Origin: a virus
Direction: 5' to 3' (one strand)
Length of the DNA stretch: 27,404 nt
IMG/VR virus record: IMGVR_UViG_3300009052_000020
Coordinates: 1 to 27,404 of that record
Positions 1-14,321 of the stretch are shown here, one piece after another. Every line of letters begins with the position of its first letter. Position 1 is the first letter of the stretch. Both the position numbers and the translations under genes were made by a program. The notes below the pieces were generated by a model that saw only the letters and a list, made by a program, of their open reading frames with translations, ran no database searches and was not told where the DNA came from.

Positions 1-669
1 CCAGTATCAACATCATTTTTAGTTTTATCTGTATTCGCTTCAACGTTCGTGTTGGAAAAAATGCTAATGAAATCTATTATGGGTTATGGTGTAGCGGCTG
101 CGTTTGCTTATCTTGTATGGTTTGCAATTCATAAGTATTTCGGTAGATGGTATGATGAAACTCAGCCCGTAAGCGAAAGTAATAAGAACTATTGGCGCGT
201 TGCTCAATGGGTTGCTACTGGTGGTTTATGGTACACTTGGTTATCACACGATATTGCTAACATCGCAGTATTCTTACCAAGGCAAGTACCGGTAGACTTA
301 ATGATACTTATATCATTTGTATTTGTCGGTGGATTGTTCTTTATGTTTAGAGAACGGGGTGGTAAGATCCAGCAAATCGTATTAGAGAAACATAACACTC
401 GATACGTACGATCGGCCACATTGATTGATTTATTCTATTGGTTGTGTCTATACTTCTTTAAAGAACTAAATGATATTCCTATGAGTACAACATGGGTTTT
501 CGTTGGTTTACTTGCAGGTCGAGAACTTGCAATGGCTACATACTTTGGTAAAAAGAAAACAAAATCAGTATTTCCATTAGTTGCTAAAGACTTTGGAAAA
601 ATGATGGTTGGTCTTGGTGCTTCAGTAGCATTAGTATTACTTATTCATACTGTGATTAATCCAGTGTAA
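1..669 (+). CDS. Multi-pass membrane protein, 5' end outside the window
   Basis: The frame is open from base 1, so the gene probably begins upstream; a GTG at 49 and an ATG at 61 are only internal candidates. The visible part has about five hydrophobic stretches (for example around 75-130, 200-290, 290-350, 430-470, 490-540 and 600-660 in nucleotides) separated by charged segments, which indicates an inner-membrane protein. I see no catalytic motif and do not recognise the family. It ends 24 bases before a terminator-like hairpin, so it is probably the last gene of an upstream transcription unit. Function is unknown; the membrane call is firm, anything more would be guesswork. Confidence 0.6.
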   Translation, partial: PVSTSFLVLSVFASTFVLEKMLMKSIMGYGVAAAFAYLVWFAIHKYFGRWYDETQPVSESNKNYWRVAQWVATGGLWYTWLSHDIANIAVFLPRQVPVDLMILISFVFVGGLFFMFRERGGKIQQIVLEKHNTRYVRSATLIDLFYWLCLYFFKELNDIPMSTTWVFVGLLAGRELAMATYFGKKKTKSVFPLVAKDFGKMMVGLGASVALVLLIHTVINPV

Positions 670-726: not shown

Positions 727-736
727 ACATTATATA
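708..736 (+). promoter_or_regulatory. Sigma70-type promoter for the tmRNA
   Basis: TTTACA (708-713), a 17-base spacer and TATATA (731-736) fit a host sigma70 promoter. The expected start near 743 matches the beginning of the acceptor half of the tmRNA. The -35 lies in the loop of the preceding hairpin. It is inferred from sequence only. Confidence 0.5.
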
Positions 737-742
737 TACTTA

Positions 743-1000
743 GTGAACGTTGAAGTGACGTGAATACGGATCGGACCGCGGGGCAGTACCGCGCATCTCC
801 ACCACAAGCGCATTATGTGTGTTTTTGATGGGGATGAACTAGGATCGACGGACGGGATAGCTAAGTGGAGTTCATCGGGTGATCGCGTATAGATCAATTA
901 AACTAAATGCAAATGAAAATTTCGCACCATCTGGTTATGCTCTAGCAGCATAAACACAGGGGGTTGGCAACTTACCTAGCAACAGAAAAGTTCGCATACA
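743..1000 (+). ncRNA. ssrA: Circularly permuted (two-piece) tmRNA
   Basis: tmRNA rescues stalled ribosomes and tags unfinished proteins for proteolysis. Here the acceptor half comes first. CATCTCC (794-800) is followed by an encoded ACCA (801-804), and a 5-bp T-arm-like stem (777-781 with 789-793) precedes it. After a spacer of about 25 bases the coding half begins with GGGGATG (830-836), which forms a 7-bp acceptor stem with CATCTCC (one G-U pair). It continues with the conserved tmRNA-like GGATCGACGG block (842-851), a TGATC/GATCA stem before the tag, and the tag frame at 909-953. This permuted order is the form known from alphaproteobacteria. The outer ends (743 and about 1000) are estimates. 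The T loop is unusual (GGCAGTA). No smpB gene is visible in the window, so host SmpB would be needed. Confidence 0.88.
909..953 (+). other. tmRNA proteolysis-tag reading frame
   Basis: From the resume codon GCA (909-911) the frame encodes ANENFAPSGYALAA and stops at TAA (951-953). The A-N-x-N start and the A-L-A-A end are typical of bacterial tmRNA tags; the terminal residues are what ClpXP-type proteases recognise. Confidence 0.88.
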
Positions 1001-2727: not shown

Positions 2728-3452
2728 TTTTCCATAGAAGGAAAAAAATAACGGTAGATGCTTTTACAGATCAGGAAAATATTGCAAAATATCCAATAGA
2801 AAGATCTAATAAGCATTTACCGAGTTGGTTTACTGACATGAAAACCGTAATAAAAAAGAAAAGCACTCAAGGATTAGTAGGAAAAACTGCTACGTTTAAA
2901 ATGTGTCAAGGCTTTCAAGATAATATTAATAATAGCTTTACTATTTCATTATGGGCAGATTTGATGTTTAGAGTAGAAGTAGATGGAACGTTTTCATACC
3001 AATACCCAAATAAACTTTGCAACTTTGGAATGGAATCTCATAATAGTCCTGAAGCAACTCCAATGGGTGAATTTGCACCGCTTAAGCATTTAAAGATATT
3101 TTCGCCCTGGGTTTTAAGAGAAAAAACTGGTGTAAACTTCTATTGGTCTCAAGCTTTTTGGTCTTATGGCGCAGCTGCATCAGATATGCTTATTCCGCCT
3201 GGTGTCGTTAATTACAAATATCAGAATGGAACACATATTAATTTAATGATACAGGCTGGAAAACAATTAGATTTAGACGCAGGTCAACCTCTCGTTTATC
3301 TACATCCTTTAACTGAAAACAAAGTAGAAATCAAAACTCATGTAGTAGATACAAAAGAGTATGAAAAATTAAAGCATGCAACAGTCTATAACAAGTTTGT
3401 AGGCGGATATAAAACACATAAGAAGAACTCAAAATGCACCCACTCTGGATAA
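2724..3452 (+). CDS. Conserved-looking phage protein of unknown function in the bilin cassette
   Basis: This 242-residue soluble protein starts in an ATGA overlap with the preceding small gene and overlaps the bilin reductase start by 19 bases. It is rich in aromatic residues (several Trp, Phe and Tyr, for example around L-P-S-W-F, F-S-P-W-V and F-Y-W-S-Q-A-F-W) and has no signal peptide or membrane segment. The middle (residues 70-190) looks beta-rich. I recall proteins of similar outline in marine T4-like phages but cannot name a domain. Its place between heme oxygenase and bilin reductase suggests, without proving, a link to bilin metabolism. Confidence 0.7.
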   Translation: MIFHRRKKITVDAFTDQENIAKYPIERSNKHLPSWFTDMKTVIKKKSTQGLVGKTATFKMCQGFQDNINNSFTISLWADLMFRVEVDGTFSYQYPNKLCNFGMESHNSPEATPMGEFAPLKHLKIFSPWVLREKTGVNFYWSQAFWSYGAAASDMLIPPGVVNYKYQNGTHINLMIQAGKQLDLDAGQPLVYLHPLTENKVEIKTHVVDTKEYEKLKHATVYNKFVGGYKTHKKNSKCTHSG

Positions 3453-4117
3453 GACTAAACGAATATGCTGATCATCTTACACAATGCTTTGATCAGCAAT
3501 TTACTCGTTATAATAACGAAAAGTATACAGAAGATCTAAAATTTAAAGATTGGAAAGATACTTTTTGGAAATCCGAACAAGTAAGTAAAGTCCATCTTAA
3601 AACTATTGTACCTGATGATGGTAAAGGTTTATGGCTTATGCATATTAATATATTTCCAAGAGTAGGCATTGAACTGCCGATTTTGGGATTTGATATTGTA
3701 GCAGGACCTAAAAAAATTACAGGTTCGTTTATGGACTTTTCACCACTACATGGTTATGATCATGCTTATAATGATTATATGGCGAAAAAAGTTTACGGTA
3801 TCGAATGGAATAAACCACGAGAACTACCCGAATGGGCTAAAGAAATTTTCTCTGATAATATGCTAGCTGTTGGCAATATTAGAGATGGCGAAGAACTAGA
3901 CCAGTTTATGGCCATAACAAAAGATTTGGTTGATCATTACTTAACTAATCTTAAAGACAGTGCGTTTGTATCAAATCGTGATACAAAACCATTACTTAAC
4001 AAATACTGCACAAATCAAAAGATGAACCCTCATCTTCATAGATCTATTTTAGCTATGGGTATTTCAGAGGAAGGAAAAAACCAATACGTCGACGACGTTC
4101 TATTTGAGGTAATTTAA
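3434..4117 (+). CDS. Ferredoxin-dependent bilin reductase (PcyA/PebS/PcyX family)
   Basis: The enzyme family reduces biliverdin to phycobilins with electrons from ferredoxin. This 227-residue protein carries the family core: a beta-strand with M-H-I-N-I-F-P-R (His70), then L-P-I-L-G-F-D-I-V-A-G (Asp87), then M-D-F-S-P-L. The 17-residue gap between His70 and Asp87 equals, from memory, that of the catalytic His88/Asp105 pair of PcyA. The Glu76 position of PcyA seems not to be Glu here. That, the phage context and the adjacent heme oxygenase favour a PebS/PcyX-like enzyme making phycoerythrobilin over PcyA, but the product cannot be settled from sequence. It is followed directly by the next gene (stop TAA then ATG). 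Confidence 0.85.
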   Translation: MHPLWIRLNEYADHLTQCFDQQFTRYNNEKYTEDLKFKDWKDTFWKSEQVSKVHLKTIVPDDGKGLWLMHINIFPRVGIELPILGFDIVAGPKKITGSFMDFSPLHGYDHAYNDYMAKKVYGIEWNKPRELPEWAKEIFSDNMLAVGNIRDGEELDQFMAITKDLVDHYLTNLKDSAFVSNRDTKPLLNKYCTNQKMNPHLHRSILAMGISEEGKNQYVDDVLFEVI

Positions 4118-4477
4118 ATGGAAAAAGGGTTTACAATTAATGCATGTTGTAGTAGAGTAAACATAATATCTGAATCACAAACATTGACATTCGGCGAACA
4201 CTTGTTCCTCGTGACTGTAGTTCATTGTTCTAATTGTGGTTCAATTAAAGCAACTACTAATATTAAGGAACACAAAATGGCAGGCGATACTATAATAGTA
4301 GAAAAAGCAGGAAAAACACTTAAGGCTGAATATTTTACAACAACAGATGGTTGTGGATGCAGATTTTTTATTAACGAAGAATTTATTCAAGAAGAATTAT
4401 ATCAAGGTAAATCTATTACATGGGCAGAAAGTGCTGCGAGTAATTGGTTGTCTGGGGTGAAAACATTAAATGGATAA
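4118..4477 (+). CDS. Small Cys-containing protein, function unknown
   Basis: This 119-residue protein has C10-C11, a C-x-x-C pair (C37, C40) and a C-x-C pair (C79, C81), which could bind a metal or, in principle, a bilin through a thioether. It has no signal peptide or membrane helix and looks largely beta with a helical end. The ATG follows the bilin reductase stop without a gap, and its 3' end overlaps gp33 by 8 bases, so it belongs to the same transcript. No family is recognised. Confidence 0.7.
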   Translation: MEKGFTINACCSRVNIISESQTLTFGEHLFLVTVVHCSNCGSIKATTNIKEHKMAGDTIIVEKAGKTLKAEYFTTTDGCGCRFFINEEFIQEELYQGKSITWAESAASNWLSGVKTLNG

Positions 4478-4724
4478 TAAGGAAAAGGTTATAAATCCAA
4501 GAACTCCAGAAAAAGTACACCACGATATATCATATATGTTACAAACTGGCGTTAACTATGTTGATGCTCTTGTTGAATATGCTCGTAAAAATGATTTAGA
4601 AATAGAGGCGGTTGCTGATATTGTTAAAAAGTCTTCGATCTTAAAAGAGAAAGTAAGAAACGAAGCTGTTAAAATGAAAATGGTTATAAGAGAAGATGAT
4701 AAAGACATCACAGAGCTTTGCTAA
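4470..4724 (+). CDS. 33: gp33-like late transcription coactivator
   Basis: In T4, gp33 bridges RNA polymerase and the sliding clamp to activate late promoters. This 84-residue helical protein has the outline of gp33 in marine T4-like phages: a central helix with V-N-Y-V-D-A-L-V-E-Y followed by D-L-E-I-E-A-V-A-D-I-V and L-K-E-K-V-R-N-E-A. The call rests mostly on that pattern and on its position directly before gp59 and gp32, the same order as in T4. It overlaps gp59 by 29 bases. The TATAAATA promoters in the window are its expected targets. Confidence 0.72.
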   Translation: MDNKEKVINPRTPEKVHHDISYMLQTGVNYVDALVEYARKNDLEIEAVADIVKKSSILKEKVRNEAVKMKMVIREDDKDITELC

Positions 4725-11196: not shown

Positions 11197-11625
11197 ATGA
11201 AAACACTTTATTTTTATTTAGCAGTCTTCGCCGCAGTATTTACAGTGAGCGCAGCAAACGCAGACGTAACAATCGAAATGTTAAACAAGCGCGACGATGG
11301 CGCTAAGATGGTTTACTCACAAGATATTACACGTATCGAAGTGGGTGAGATTATCACATGGATACCAACATCAAAAGGTCATAACGTAGAATTTATTGCA
11401 GGACCAGACGGATGGAAGTTGCCTAAGAAATCAAAATTAAATAAAGTAGTTGAGATGCAGTTCAATACACCTGGTGTATATTTGTATCAATGTTCACCAC
11501 ATAAAACAATGGGCATGATTGCTATTGTCGTTGTAGGTGATGGCGGAGATGGTTTATCTGTTCCAGGTAAAAAGATTAAAGGCAAGTCAAAGAAAAGACT
11601 TAAAGAAATAATGGCTGACCTATGA
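11197..11625 (+). CDS. Pseudoazurin-like blue copper protein
   Basis: Pseudoazurins are periplasmic type I copper electron carriers. The 142-residue protein has a signal peptide (residues 1-22, ending S-A-A-N-A). The mature part is a beta-sandwich with the full ligand set: His62 in K-G-H-N-V-E-F, Cys99 and His102 in Y-L-Y-Q-C-S-P-H, and Met107 in K-T-M-G-M. The Cys-to-Met gap of 8 equals that of classic pseudoazurins. A Lys-rich C-terminus follows. It closes the operon with the c-subunit homologue, so it likely acts in the host periplasm as an electron carrier. The copper site looks intact; the redox partner is unknown. Confidence 0.88.
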   Translation: MKTLYFYLAVFAAVFTVSAANADVTIEMLNKRDDGAKMVYSQDITRIEVGEIITWIPTSKGHNVEFIAGPDGWKLPKKSKLNKVVEMQFNTPGVYLYQCSPHKTMGMIAIVVVGDGGDGLSVPGKKIKGKSKKRLKEIMADL

Positions 11626-11684
11626 TCGATCCAGACCACACTTACGTAAAGCCTAAAGGTGAGAAGAAAAAAGGCGGAAAGTAA
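11622..11684 (+). CDS. Possible 20-residue peptide overlapping the pseudoazurin stop
   Basis: ATG at 11622 overlaps the TGA of pseudoazurin (ATGA) and opens 20 codons ending G-E-K-K-K-G-G-K. The coupling geometry is the same as elsewhere in this operon, but length and composition alone cannot show that it is made. Confidence 0.33.
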   Translation: MIDPDHTYVKPKGEKKKGGK

Positions 11685-11700
11685 TAACTTTATAAATCCG

Positions 11701-11708
11701 TATAAATA
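11701..11708 (+). promoter_or_regulatory. T4-type late promoter of the glycan cassette
   Basis: Exact TATAAATA, 51 bases before the methyltransferase ATG. The expected start (about 11713) falls on the first bases of the hairpin at 11712, so the late transcript would begin with a stem-loop. Confidence 0.7.
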
Positions 11709-11711
11709 AAG

Positions 11712-11740
11712 GGTAGGCATTAAGTTGTCTACCTTTTTTT
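11712..11740 (+). terminator. Terminator of the pseudoazurin operon
   Basis: GGTAGGCA (11712-11719) pairs with TGTCTACC (11726-11733), 8 bp with one G-U and a 6-base loop, followed by seven Ts (11734-11740). It is a clear intrinsic terminator in shape, placed downstream of a late promoter rather than upstream of it. Confidence 0.8.
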
Positions 11741-11759
11741 GATTCAACGGAGAAATATT

Positions 11760-12323
11760 ATGGGAAGAATACGTGATAGAGGTAATGATGGCGGTAATGT
11801 TTATAGGTGGCAAACATTAGCAAGATTCGTAAATACTAACGGTTGGAGAAGAGGCGCAGAACTAGGAGTTCACGATGGCGTTAACTACAAATATTTAATT
11901 AATAATTGTCCGAATTTACATTTAATCGGTGTAGATTTATACGAGCCACAACCAGAAAATAATGGTCCAGAAAAGTGGACTCCAGGCGAACATGGTCATG
12001 CTTGGAATCATAACGCATATTATGACGATATGAGAGAATTTTCAATAAAACACCCAGATAGAACTGATATAATTAAAGACTATACCACAGAAGCTGCTAA
12101 GACGGTTTATGATGGTTCATTAGATTTTGTATTCATCGATGCTGATCATGGATATGAAGGTTGTTTGCGTGATATTAAAGCGTGGGATAGTAAAGTACGA
12201 GAAGGTGGTATTGTATTTGGACATGATATTCATTTCCCTACTGTACAAAAAGCAGTTACAGAATTTTACGGTGAAAACTCTTGGAACGTTGAAGATGATT
12301 TTATTTGGTGGGTGCAAAAGTGA
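11760..12323 (+). CDS. SAM-dependent methyltransferase (class I)
   Basis: The ATG at 11760, behind ACGGAGAAAT, gives a 187-residue protein; an upstream in-frame ATG at 11739 lies in the terminator T-run and is rejected. Motif I is A-E-L-G-V-H-D-G (33-40), an acidic strand end I-G-V-D (56-59) fits SAM ribose binding, and F-V-F-I-D-A-D-H-G-Y-E-G (123-134) matches small sugar- or lipid-type methyltransferases (Methyltransf_24-like). The next gene starts at a GTG overlapping its stop. In a cassette with glycosyltransferases and a sulfotransferase it probably methylates a glycan. Confidence 0.8.
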   Translation: MGRIRDRGNDGGNVYRWQTLARFVNTNGWRRGAELGVHDGVNYKYLINNCPNLHLIGVDLYEPQPENNGPEKWTPGEHGHAWNHNAYYDDMREFSIKHPDRTDIIKDYTTEAAKTVYDGSLDFVFIDADHGYEGCLRDIKAWDSKVREGGIVFGHDIHFPTVQKAVTEFYGENSWNVEDDFIWWVQK

Positions 12324-12970
12324 ATATTGAAAAGAAGCTGACACAGATTTGGATAGGACCTAAGCCTGCTCCGCTTACATGGATGCACACTTGGCGAGAT
12401 AAACATCCTGACTGGGAATATTCTATATTTGATGATAGTATGCTTCATAATCGTAAATGGCATAACCAACATTTAATTGATCGTTACTATGCAATGCAAA
12501 AGTGGCCAGGAGTATCAGACTTAATAAGATATGAATTGTTATATGAAAGAGGTGGCTTTTGGCCAGAAGCTGATATGACTTGCTTAGAAAATACTGATGA
12601 GTTGTTTACTTCACCAAAAGATCATGCTTATTCTTGTTATGAAAATGAAAAAGGAAGACAAAACTTTATTCAACCTATTATGGCATGTAATCCAGGTAAT
12701 GCTTTCGTAAAACATGTCATAGATACATTACATATATTAACACCAAACGAATTAAGCCCAGAACCTTTTAGATCAACTGGAAATCTATTCTTAGCTCGTC
12801 ATGTTCCGCATTGGATGCATCAACTTACAGTATGGCCCAGTCATTACTTCATTCCTTTGTTTTACATTGGCGGAGCTAAAAGATATGATGGACCTGATAA
12901 GGTTTATGCCGATCATAAATGGGGATCAACCGGCCATGCAAATAGTATAACATATGATAAGGGTTTATAA
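12320..12970 (+). CDS. GT32-like glycosyltransferase
   Basis: The GTG at 12320 overlaps the preceding stop (GTGA) and puts the conserved strand K-L-T-Q-I-W-I-G-P at residues 6-14, as in GT32/OCH1-type sugar transferases; an upstream GTG at 12305 is less likely. Further family features are W-R-D-K-H-P-D-W-E, S-D-L-I-R-Y-E-L-L-Y-E-R-G-G-F, and E83-A-D85 at the place of the usual D-x-D that binds the nucleotide sugar and metal. A His/Trp-rich segment follows. The product is 216 residues. Its acceptor is unknown; capsid, tail or host surface glycan are possible. Confidence 0.77.
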   Translation: MNIEKKLTQIWIGPKPAPLTWMHTWRDKHPDWEYSIFDDSMLHNRKWHNQHLIDRYYAMQKWPGVSDLIRYELLYERGGFWPEADMTCLENTDELFTSPKDHAYSCYENEKGRQNFIQPIMACNPGNAFVKHVIDTLHILTPNELSPEPFRSTGNLFLARHVPHWMHQLTVWPSHYFIPLFYIGGAKRYDGPDKVYADHKWGSTGHANSITYDKGL

Positions 12971-13641
12971 TGTACATATCTCACAAATATAAATTGATAT
13001 TTTTAAGATCTCCGAAAACCGCTAGTAGCAGCTTATCAGAGTTTTTTATTAAAAACATTCCCGATCCTGATGCTATATACACGCCAGTAGAAGATAGTAA
13101 TATAAAAGGAACATTGAGTCAGGATATTATTAATAGATATAAAACTCATTTCAAATTTTATCATTTTACTTTGCAAGATATAATTGATAATAATATTATT
13201 ACGAAAGAACAGGCATTATCATATCGTTCTATTTGTGTTATAAGAGATCCAGTCGATAGACAAAAAAGTTTTTACTACTTTTATAAAAAATGGAAACAAC
13301 CTGGTTCTCAAGCGAGCATTGAACAATACAACGATTGGACATCAAACGGTCCTTTTATAGGTGAACCTAACTCTGGTATATTACAATCATCTTTTTTAAA
13401 AATCGATAACAAAATTGTAGGAGAGTATTGGTTGTATCAAAACTTTCATAATGATTTAAGTCAATTAATGCGAGAATTAGACTTATCGGTAACACATATG
13501 TTACCACAGCATAAGACAGACTTTAGAAAAAACAGAGATAACGAAATAAAGTTTAACGAGTTTGCCACTGATAATTTAAACAAATTCTTTGGTTCAGATG
13601 TTAAGTTGTATAATGAATTATTAGAAGAGACTTATGTATGA
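12970..13641 (+). CDS. Sulfotransferase family protein
   Basis: Sulfotransferases move sulfate from PAPS to hydroxyls of sugars or other acceptors. The 223-residue protein starts with a strand leading into the 5'-phosphosulfate-binding loop F-L-R-S-P-K-T-A-S-S-S-L (11-22). The second hallmark, the 3'-phosphate site V-I-R-D-P-V-D-R-Q-K-S (90-100), is also present. The rest is helical with many aromatic residues. It overlaps the neighbours by 1 and 4 bases. Together with the methyltransferase and two glycosyltransferases it suggests a sulfated glycan product. The PAPS source would be the host. Confidence 0.77.
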   Translation: MYISHKYKLIFLRSPKTASSSLSEFFIKNIPDPDAIYTPVEDSNIKGTLSQDIINRYKTHFKFYHFTLQDIIDNNIITKEQALSYRSICVIRDPVDRQKSFYYFYKKWKQPGSQASIEQYNDWTSNGPFIGEPNSGILQSSFLKIDNKIVGEYWLYQNFHNDLSQLMRELDLSVTHMLPQHKTDFRKNRDNEIKFNEFATDNLNKFFGSDVKLYNELLEETYV

Positions 13642-14321
13642 AAGCTTACATATTAAAGATTGATACTCAAACATCGAATGAATATGCTAAAGTTTGTTCT
13701 GATAGCTGCAACAATATAGGACTTGATTGGGAGTATTTTAACGGGTTTCAAAACATGTCTGGAAAGATGGCTTTTAATACTTTAAATATCCCTGGTTTAC
13801 CTGTAGAAACATACAGTCACATCGATAACCCTTCTACTGGCCATAAAGCTATGTGTGCTACAGCTGGTCATTTTGCGATATGGCAGAAAATTGCTAAGTC
13901 TGACCACGATGTAGGTATAGTTTTAGAACATGACGCAGTTATGTTACAACCAGTAACTATACAAATACCAGAAAATACTATCGTTGTTCTTGGTTACAAA
14001 GTTAAAGATAAAGATAGATACGATCACAAATCTGCTGGTGTTCCTAATGATTTAATAAGAATTGACGGGCACGAAGGAGCTCACGCTTATGCAATAACTA
14101 AAAGAACTGCTAAGTTCTTGCTCAATGAATTGAGCATACAAGGTGTTCATAGCGCAATAGATAATGATTATTTTATTAGAAGACAGCGCAGAACTGCAAT
14201 GCCTTTAACTATAGCATCACCTACACCAGCTATAGGATGGTTAAGGGAATCTACCATATGGCAAGAAAGTTCTCATACTAATTATGAATTTATACCCTCT
14301 TTTCATAAATATTATAAATAG
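13638..14321 (+). CDS. GT25-like glycosyltransferase
   Basis: The 227-residue protein resembles the GT25 (LPS galactosyltransferase-like) family: N-terminal strand A-Y-I-L-K-I-D, G-H-K-A-M-C-A-T-A-G-H-F-A-I-W-Q-K-I-A (69-86), V-G-I-V-L-E-H-D-A-V with E97-H-D99 as the acidic metal/sugar site, and G-A-H-A-Y-A-I-T-K-R-T-A-K-F-L-L. It is the last gene of the cassette and its stop codon overlaps the next late promoter. The acceptor is unknown. Confidence 0.77.
   Translation: MKAYILKIDTQTSNEYAKVCSDSCNNIGLDWEYFNGFQNMSGKMAFNTLNIPGLPVETYSHIDNPSTGHKAMCATAGHFAIWQKIAKSDHDVGIVLEHDAVMLQPVTIQIPENTIVVLGYKVKDKDRYDHKSAGVPNDLIRIDGHEGAHAYAITKRTAKFLLNELSIQGVHSAIDNDYFIRRQRRTAMPLTIASPTPAIGWLRESTIWQESSHTNYEFIPSFHKYYK
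14313..14320 (+). promoter_or_regulatory. T4-type late promoter of the head-protein array
   Basis: Exact TATAAATA overlapping the stop codon region of the GT25-like gene, 33 bases before the ATG at 14353. Confidence 0.72.

Follow-up and report, generated by a model that had tools for sequence, protein, structure and literature searches.

A permuted two-piece tmRNA gene in a T4-like phage and the variable intervening segment of its relatives

A two-piece tmRNA has been published for the Methylophilales phage Melnitz, in a study that classified 53 phage tmRNAs as two-piece; marine or aquatic samples had yielded 50 of these (PMC9004378). Melnitz, a T4-like marine phage, carries an alpha-type permuted two-piece ssrA upstream of gp33, the helicase loader (gp59) and gp32, with the tag ANDNYVPVDYALAA and a reported glutamine riboswitch; its 142-nt intervening segment holds an unannotated micro-ORF (MFKWLSKTRLVVITRDYF...). 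Its authors inferred early tmRNA expression from a predicted sigma-70 promoter (PMC9004378). RcXuper, DSS3P8, DSS3_MAL1, Cp1R7A-A1 and Lacusarx, phages of alphaproteobacteria, also possess permuted tmRNAs, with tags other than the one described here and with structured-looking inserts in intervening segments of ~70-110 nt. A tRNA-Ala nested in the intervening sequence of a tmRNA from one MAG has been called unique (PMC11915505).

The window analysed here, the whole 27,404-base stretch of an IMG/VR virus record, comes from a marine-type T4-like phage and encodes a T4-like gene set (gp32, UvsX, gp41-type helicase, gp33-type, gp59-type, RNR and ThyX) and the following features of the tmRNA locus and its surroundings.

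49-669, plus strand: membrane-protein gene upstream of the tmRNA, its 5' part outside the window
731-738, plus strand: TATATATA, which deviates by one base from the T4-type late promoter TATAAATA; transcription predicted to start at ~743-745
743-804, plus strand: acceptor (tRNA-like 3') piece, terminating in an encoded CCA at 802-804 (start of the RF04321 match at 743; sequence)
777-793, plus strand: T-arm, stem 777-781/789-793, loop GGCAGTA (RF04321 alignment, predicted fold)
794-800, plus strand: 3' strand of the acceptor stem, CATCTCC (sequence, Rfam alignment, fold)
805-829, plus strand: intervening segment (slot), 25 nt with one short hairpin, a minimal, cargo-free form (fold, slot comparison)
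830-836, plus strand: 5' strand of the acceptor stem, GGGGATG, and 5' end of the coding piece (putative RNase P site)
830-996, plus strand: coding (mRNA-like) piece (RF01849 match up to 996)
909-953, plus strand: tag reading frame, ANENFAPSGYALAA plus TAA (ARAGORN)
4470-4724, plus strand: gp33-type late-transcription regulator (phrog_254, E 1.1e-8; neighbourhood as in Melnitz)

Region 743-996 is a permuted tmRNA of the alphaproteobacterial type. ARAGORN reports a single permuted tmRNA at 712-1044. The Rfam models RF04321 (tmRNA_permuted; 743-953, 109.1 bits, E 9.9e-21, cut-off 47) and RF01849 (alpha_tmRNA; 699-996, 109.0 bits, E 3.4e-29, cut-off 50) are both matched over their full length, with scores more than twice the cut-off. 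The gene begins slightly 5' of the 743-1000 interval given in a preliminary description and finishes close to its end. That description had proposed a phage-borne, permuted, two-piece tmRNA with its own tag, an identification borne out by ARAGORN, both Rfam models, the virus record and the phage genes. It had also placed an acceptor half with encoded CCA ahead of the coding half, as found here with the CCA at 802-804 and the coding piece from 830. Its view of permutation as an alphaproteobacterial trait agrees with the RF01849 match, though permuted tmRNAs are found in beta- and cyanobacterial lineages as well (PMC11915505). By itself, the window gene is a further example of the already published phage two-piece tmRNA. 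It differs from that of Melnitz in its tag (ANENFAPSGYALAA), in its shorter slot, in the lack of a riboswitch match in the window, and in the tmRNA-gp33 gap, which in the window contains a porin-like gene and a heme oxygenase/bilin reductase block. Elsewhere, a glutamine riboswitch lies directly 3' of another phage tmRNA (L629, 1019-1072), as reported for Melnitz.

The 7-bp acceptor stem noted in the preliminary description (830-836 with 794-800) is exact when read from the sequence. The third pair is G.U, with G832.U798 corresponding to the alanine identity pair G3.U70, and the discriminator is A801. Both the alpha-tmRNA covariance model and ARAGORN, named there as the checks to run, match the locus, and the predicted fold contains the shared acceptor stem together with the T-arm and a hairpin inside the intervening segment. 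In the model alignment, several pairs of the helix under the tRNA-like domain are non-standard. Covariation across 446 phage tmRNAs is seen at acceptor pairs 5 and 6, which are formed in 99-100% as opposed to 53% and 75% when letters are re-dealt; the search pattern left these positions free, but the filter required six of the seven pairs, which helps the figure. Pairs 1-4 were fixed by the search pattern and for this reason were not used as evidence.

The tag frame, given as 14 codons ending in A-L-A-A in the preliminary description and called identically by ARAGORN, is a short frame with a degradation signal. Alphaproteobacterial tmRNAs of the RF01849/RF04321 type usually encode 12-residue tags, in contrast to the 14 residues and the late-promoter-like motif upstream seen in the window. 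The same difference holds more widely, the commonest tag length being 14 residues in phages versus 12 in bacteria, and an aromatic residue occupies position -5 in 59% of phage tags versus 14% of bacterial ones. An [LVIM]AA end is present in 89% of phage tags, and LAA or a close variant is common to most tags in both groups. For PSG-type tags pS is 0.47 and pN 0.10; the phage tag peptide is under purifying selection. Tags of 29 residues (AKKSTTFASILPVKVERVSLVQEALAASA, AKASTGEVTVSAKNLKFRTLAAKGQSLAV) were called in L004, L005, L022 and L008; their ends are unlike degradation tags, and they may reflect calling errors or another type of tag.

Region 743-996 is likely a working-type permuted ssrA of a T4-like phage, a two-piece tmRNA that tags with ANENFAPSGYALAA and rescues ribosomes late in infection. 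The precursor would begin near 743, probably at a late promoter, and would fold with one acceptor stem common to its acceptor and coding pieces. Excision of the 25-nt intervening hairpin by tRNA-processing enzymes of the host would yield the two-piece tmRNA, which host AlaRS could charge by virtue of the G3.U pair and host SmpB could bring to stalled ribosomes. No SmpB gene is present in ten phage records searched, three of them complete genomes, which makes host SmpB the likely partner. The tmRNA would then append ANENFAPSGYALAA as a ClpXP-type degradation tag and free ribosomes in late infection; in relatives with cargo, the same processing would release the slot RNA. We infer transcription, processing, charging, tagging and cargo expression from sequence comparison. 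Tagging of proteins by the phage copy during infection, as the preliminary description envisaged, is plausible. Alternatively, the phage tmRNA might act as a decoy for host SmpB, AlaRS or EF-Tu, binding one of these and so weakening host trans-translation instead of tagging. There is a precedent in the tag-less tmRNA of phage DS6A, which inhibits host tmRNA in E. coli according to its citation in PMC11915505, and the dissimilarity of phage and host tags in length and at position -5 is compatible with such a role. A decoy has no need of a tag, yet this tag frame is intact, evolves under purifying selection and terminates in a degradation signal, and we regard this alternative as improbable.

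The preliminary description suggested that the phage had probably taken the gene from an alphaproteobacterial host; as a recent event this is not supported, the phage tmRNAs forming a separate lineage and a search for a close bacterial copy having found none. The same virus has identical copies of the window tmRNA on further contigs, and copies with 95% identity occur on phage contigs that were binned with a Rhodobacteraceae MAG. Blastn scores with the window tmRNA descend from 480 bits across many phages, and the best score among 101 alphaproteobacterial tmRNAs is 83 bits, in short pieces lying nearly all in the tRNA-like half. On a tree of 164 tmRNAs, built with the slot sequence left out and comparing phage rows with 80 alphaproteobacterial tmRNAs, 3 label changes suffice for the 83 phage rows, versus a shuffled mean of 55; the window tmRNA falls within a starred, all-phage set of 17 rows. 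This quick tree has many weak forks and supports an old phage lineage rather than a count of transfers. Together these comparisons support membership of the window tmRNA in a large, old phage lineage apart from the alphaproteobacterial ones.

Host assignment through the tag was tried and rejected: a tag-pattern scan of 84,980 species genomes returned alphaproteobacterial tags of 12-15 residues, and the phage tag itself was confined to phage contigs within the bin of a single MAG. The GTDB bin Rhodobacteraceae bacterium Water_Bin34 contains eight permuted tmRNAs, several on phage contigs (L121, L137, L145-L152; G001). Such a number indicates a bin mixed with phage, and Water_Bin34 is therefore not evidence for the host.

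The late-promoter-type motif distinguishes the phage genes further. TATAAATA is the T4 late-promoter core. Among the matches listed, TATANATA stands at a fixed distance upstream of 325 of 469 distinct phage tmRNAs (69%), compared with 9.5 of 469 (2%) expected from shuffling, and the exact TATAAATA precedes 298 of the 469. The motif starts ~70-85 nt before the CCA end. None of 80 bacterial tmRNAs has it, 35 of these being AT-rich upstream. The start predicted from TATATATA in the window coincides with the beginning of the RF04321 match, and four ORFs of the window, at 1955, 11739, 19300 and 21880, have an exact TATAAATA copy 38-40 nt upstream. No sigma-70 promoter or terminator was found at the window tmRNA locus. 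The presence of this motif upstream of phage tmRNAs suggests expression late in infection; the one-base deviation in the window and the early promoter predicted for Melnitz speak against it. A fixed-distance late-promoter motif before phage tmRNAs seems to be undescribed so far.

A recently captured host gene, or a passenger with no selected function in the phage, would be a different account of the locus, and tmRNA genes do commonly serve as integration sites. This account is very improbable in view of the large separate phage lineage, the phage-type promoter motif, the covarying stems and the selection on the tag; moreover, no integrase was found among the domains searched.

The membrane-protein gene upstream of the tmRNA gave no Pfam, PHROG or INPHARED match. 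Its product is 319 residues long in L137 (3405-4364) and shows 89-100% identity across the 80 best relatives; its start resembles a phosphate-permease motif by eye only. Downstream, heme oxygenase and ferredoxin-dependent bilin reductase genes are located at 1955-2497 and 3434-4117; phage cassettes of this kind (pcyX/pcyA type) have been described (PMC11480375). At 11197-14321, a cupredoxin (plastocyanin/azurin family) gene is followed by a run of methyltransferase-like, glycosyltransferase, sulfotransferase-like and LPS-type glycosyltransferase genes.

The slot between CCA and coding piece ranges from about 25 to 184 nt in the relatives of the window tmRNA. At least 497 distinct slots were assembled from pattern scans of viral contigs and from loci found in other searches. 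Their ends pair with each other over a median of 11 bp, versus 4 in shuffles (497 slots, among the matches listed). Pairs 3-10 of this closing stem are formed in 94-100% of the 331 listed slots of at least 50 nt, versus 49-90% with re-dealt 3' letters, and most of these pairs show at least four pair types. Slot-bearing loci retain a recognizable tmRNA: whatever the length bin, ARAGORN calls one in 49-80%, and the tmRNA models are matched at 20 of 20 cargo-bearing loci. When loci were collected by way of the upstream gene, a choice on which slot length has no influence, slots of at least 60 nt were present in 12 of 26 distinct tmRNAs, versus 13 of 79 bacterial slots. Patterns for 116-177-nt slots match 2 of 385 alphaproteobacterial genomes, one match being a phage contig; as the pattern fits only 23 of 101 bacterial tmRNAs, this bacterial comparison is approximate. 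A contig assigned to Rickettsiales MAG SAT45 (L131), probably a phage contig, carries a 265-nt stem-closed slot with a complete 75-residue ORF. Filled slots also occur in cultured phage isolates. The window slot holds only its hairpin and no ORF, tRNA or conserved RNA, while many relatives carry cargo; cargo is thus a property of the family and not of the window copy.

Among the matches listed, 67 of 233 slots of at least 100 nt contain a Shine-Dalgarno sequence and an ATG frame of at least 25 codons; mononucleotide shuffles would give 2.65, and the reverse strand has 7. In nine of ten ORF families tested pN/pS is 0.18-0.46, including cluster 0 at 0.44 with two misaligned frames; the tenth family, at 0.73, consists of three poorly aligned members. 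These ratios suggest purifying selection on the slot micro-ORFs of most families tested. Of 83 frames that occupy most of their slot, 44 stop within the slot and 39 run beyond the inferred RNase P site, so that their stop codon would be lost on processing. Ten slot peptides gave no PHROG match at E<=0.001, and tblastn detected no free-standing homologues of two slot peptides in phage records. None of the literature searched describes ORFs within the intervening segment of a tmRNA, although priority is not certain.

RNA cargo is of several kinds. ARAGORN places a tRNA-Arg inside the slots of L567 and L601, comparable to the nested tRNA-Ala of the MAG tmRNA. As a general filling of long slots tRNA was rejected, being found by ARAGORN in only 2 of 497 slots listed. 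No Rfam family reached its cut-off in the slots of 20 representative loci, where tmRNA clan competition hides overlapping tRNA matches. A pseudoknot RNA, whose structure was derived from the very sequences on which it was tested, shows pairing in 98% of cells and double changes in 10 pairs, versus 30-51% and 0-1 in slid controls. The cluster-12 RNA comprises a closing stem and three arms, with double changes in 12 of 29 pairs. All 16 contigs found with its pattern alone carry it in a tmRNA slot and none elsewhere, three of them having been marked FREE by the script and reassigned as slots by eye. Highly folded RNA as a general description of cargo was rejected (median z -0.56 to -0.95, one representative per cluster), and with such unremarkable scores structure is claimed only for cargo families with covariation. 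The cargo of L032 and L063 is similar to a stretch that lacks annotation within the tRNA cluster of Vibrio phage KVP40 and its relatives. That stretch (L383, 1501-1568) is 70 nt, conserved, located between tRNA-His and tRNA-Cys, and also present in other T4-like phages.

Cargo changes on the tmRNA tree number 82, versus a possible minimum of 22, and unrelated slots lie within identical tmRNA bodies in the pairs L503/L643, L302/L834, L539/L648 and L516/L621. This pattern indicates that slot cargo is swapped among phages while the tmRNA body stays. The inserts could instead be neutral stuffing tolerated in a discarded loop, as might be expected from the 145 singletons among the 415 listed slots of at least 50 nt and from the ordinary folding scores overall. 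Against this stand the excess of ORFs over both controls, their low pN/pS, the doubly changed pairs of the pseudoknot and the confinement of the cluster-12 RNA to slots, and neutral stuffing appears unlikely. We lean towards a dedicated, stem-closed cargo site from which T4-like and related phages would express swappable micro-proteins, tRNAs and structured RNAs by late transcription and tRNA-type processing of the tmRNA. On this reading some of the cargo would exist nowhere else, some micro-ORFs deprived of their stop codon could feed the tmRNA pathway itself, and the window gene would be the form with an empty slot. A cargo-holding, stem-closed slot in the intervening segment seems not to have been described so far. 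Whereas the nested tRNA-Ala was regarded as unique (PMC11915505), cargo in these phages is common, of many kinds and apparently swappable.

Phage tmRNA has hitherto been regarded as a stray host gene. The lineage specific to phages, the late-type motif and the selected tag point instead to phages that would supply their own ribosome rescue late in infection. If the reading of the slot is true, it would represent a new form of gene packing, with small genes nested in the removed part of an RNA gene and exchanged between phages with the tmRNA unchanged. Current annotation would then also be missing phage micro-protein and structured-RNA families, as it misses the slot ORF of Melnitz.
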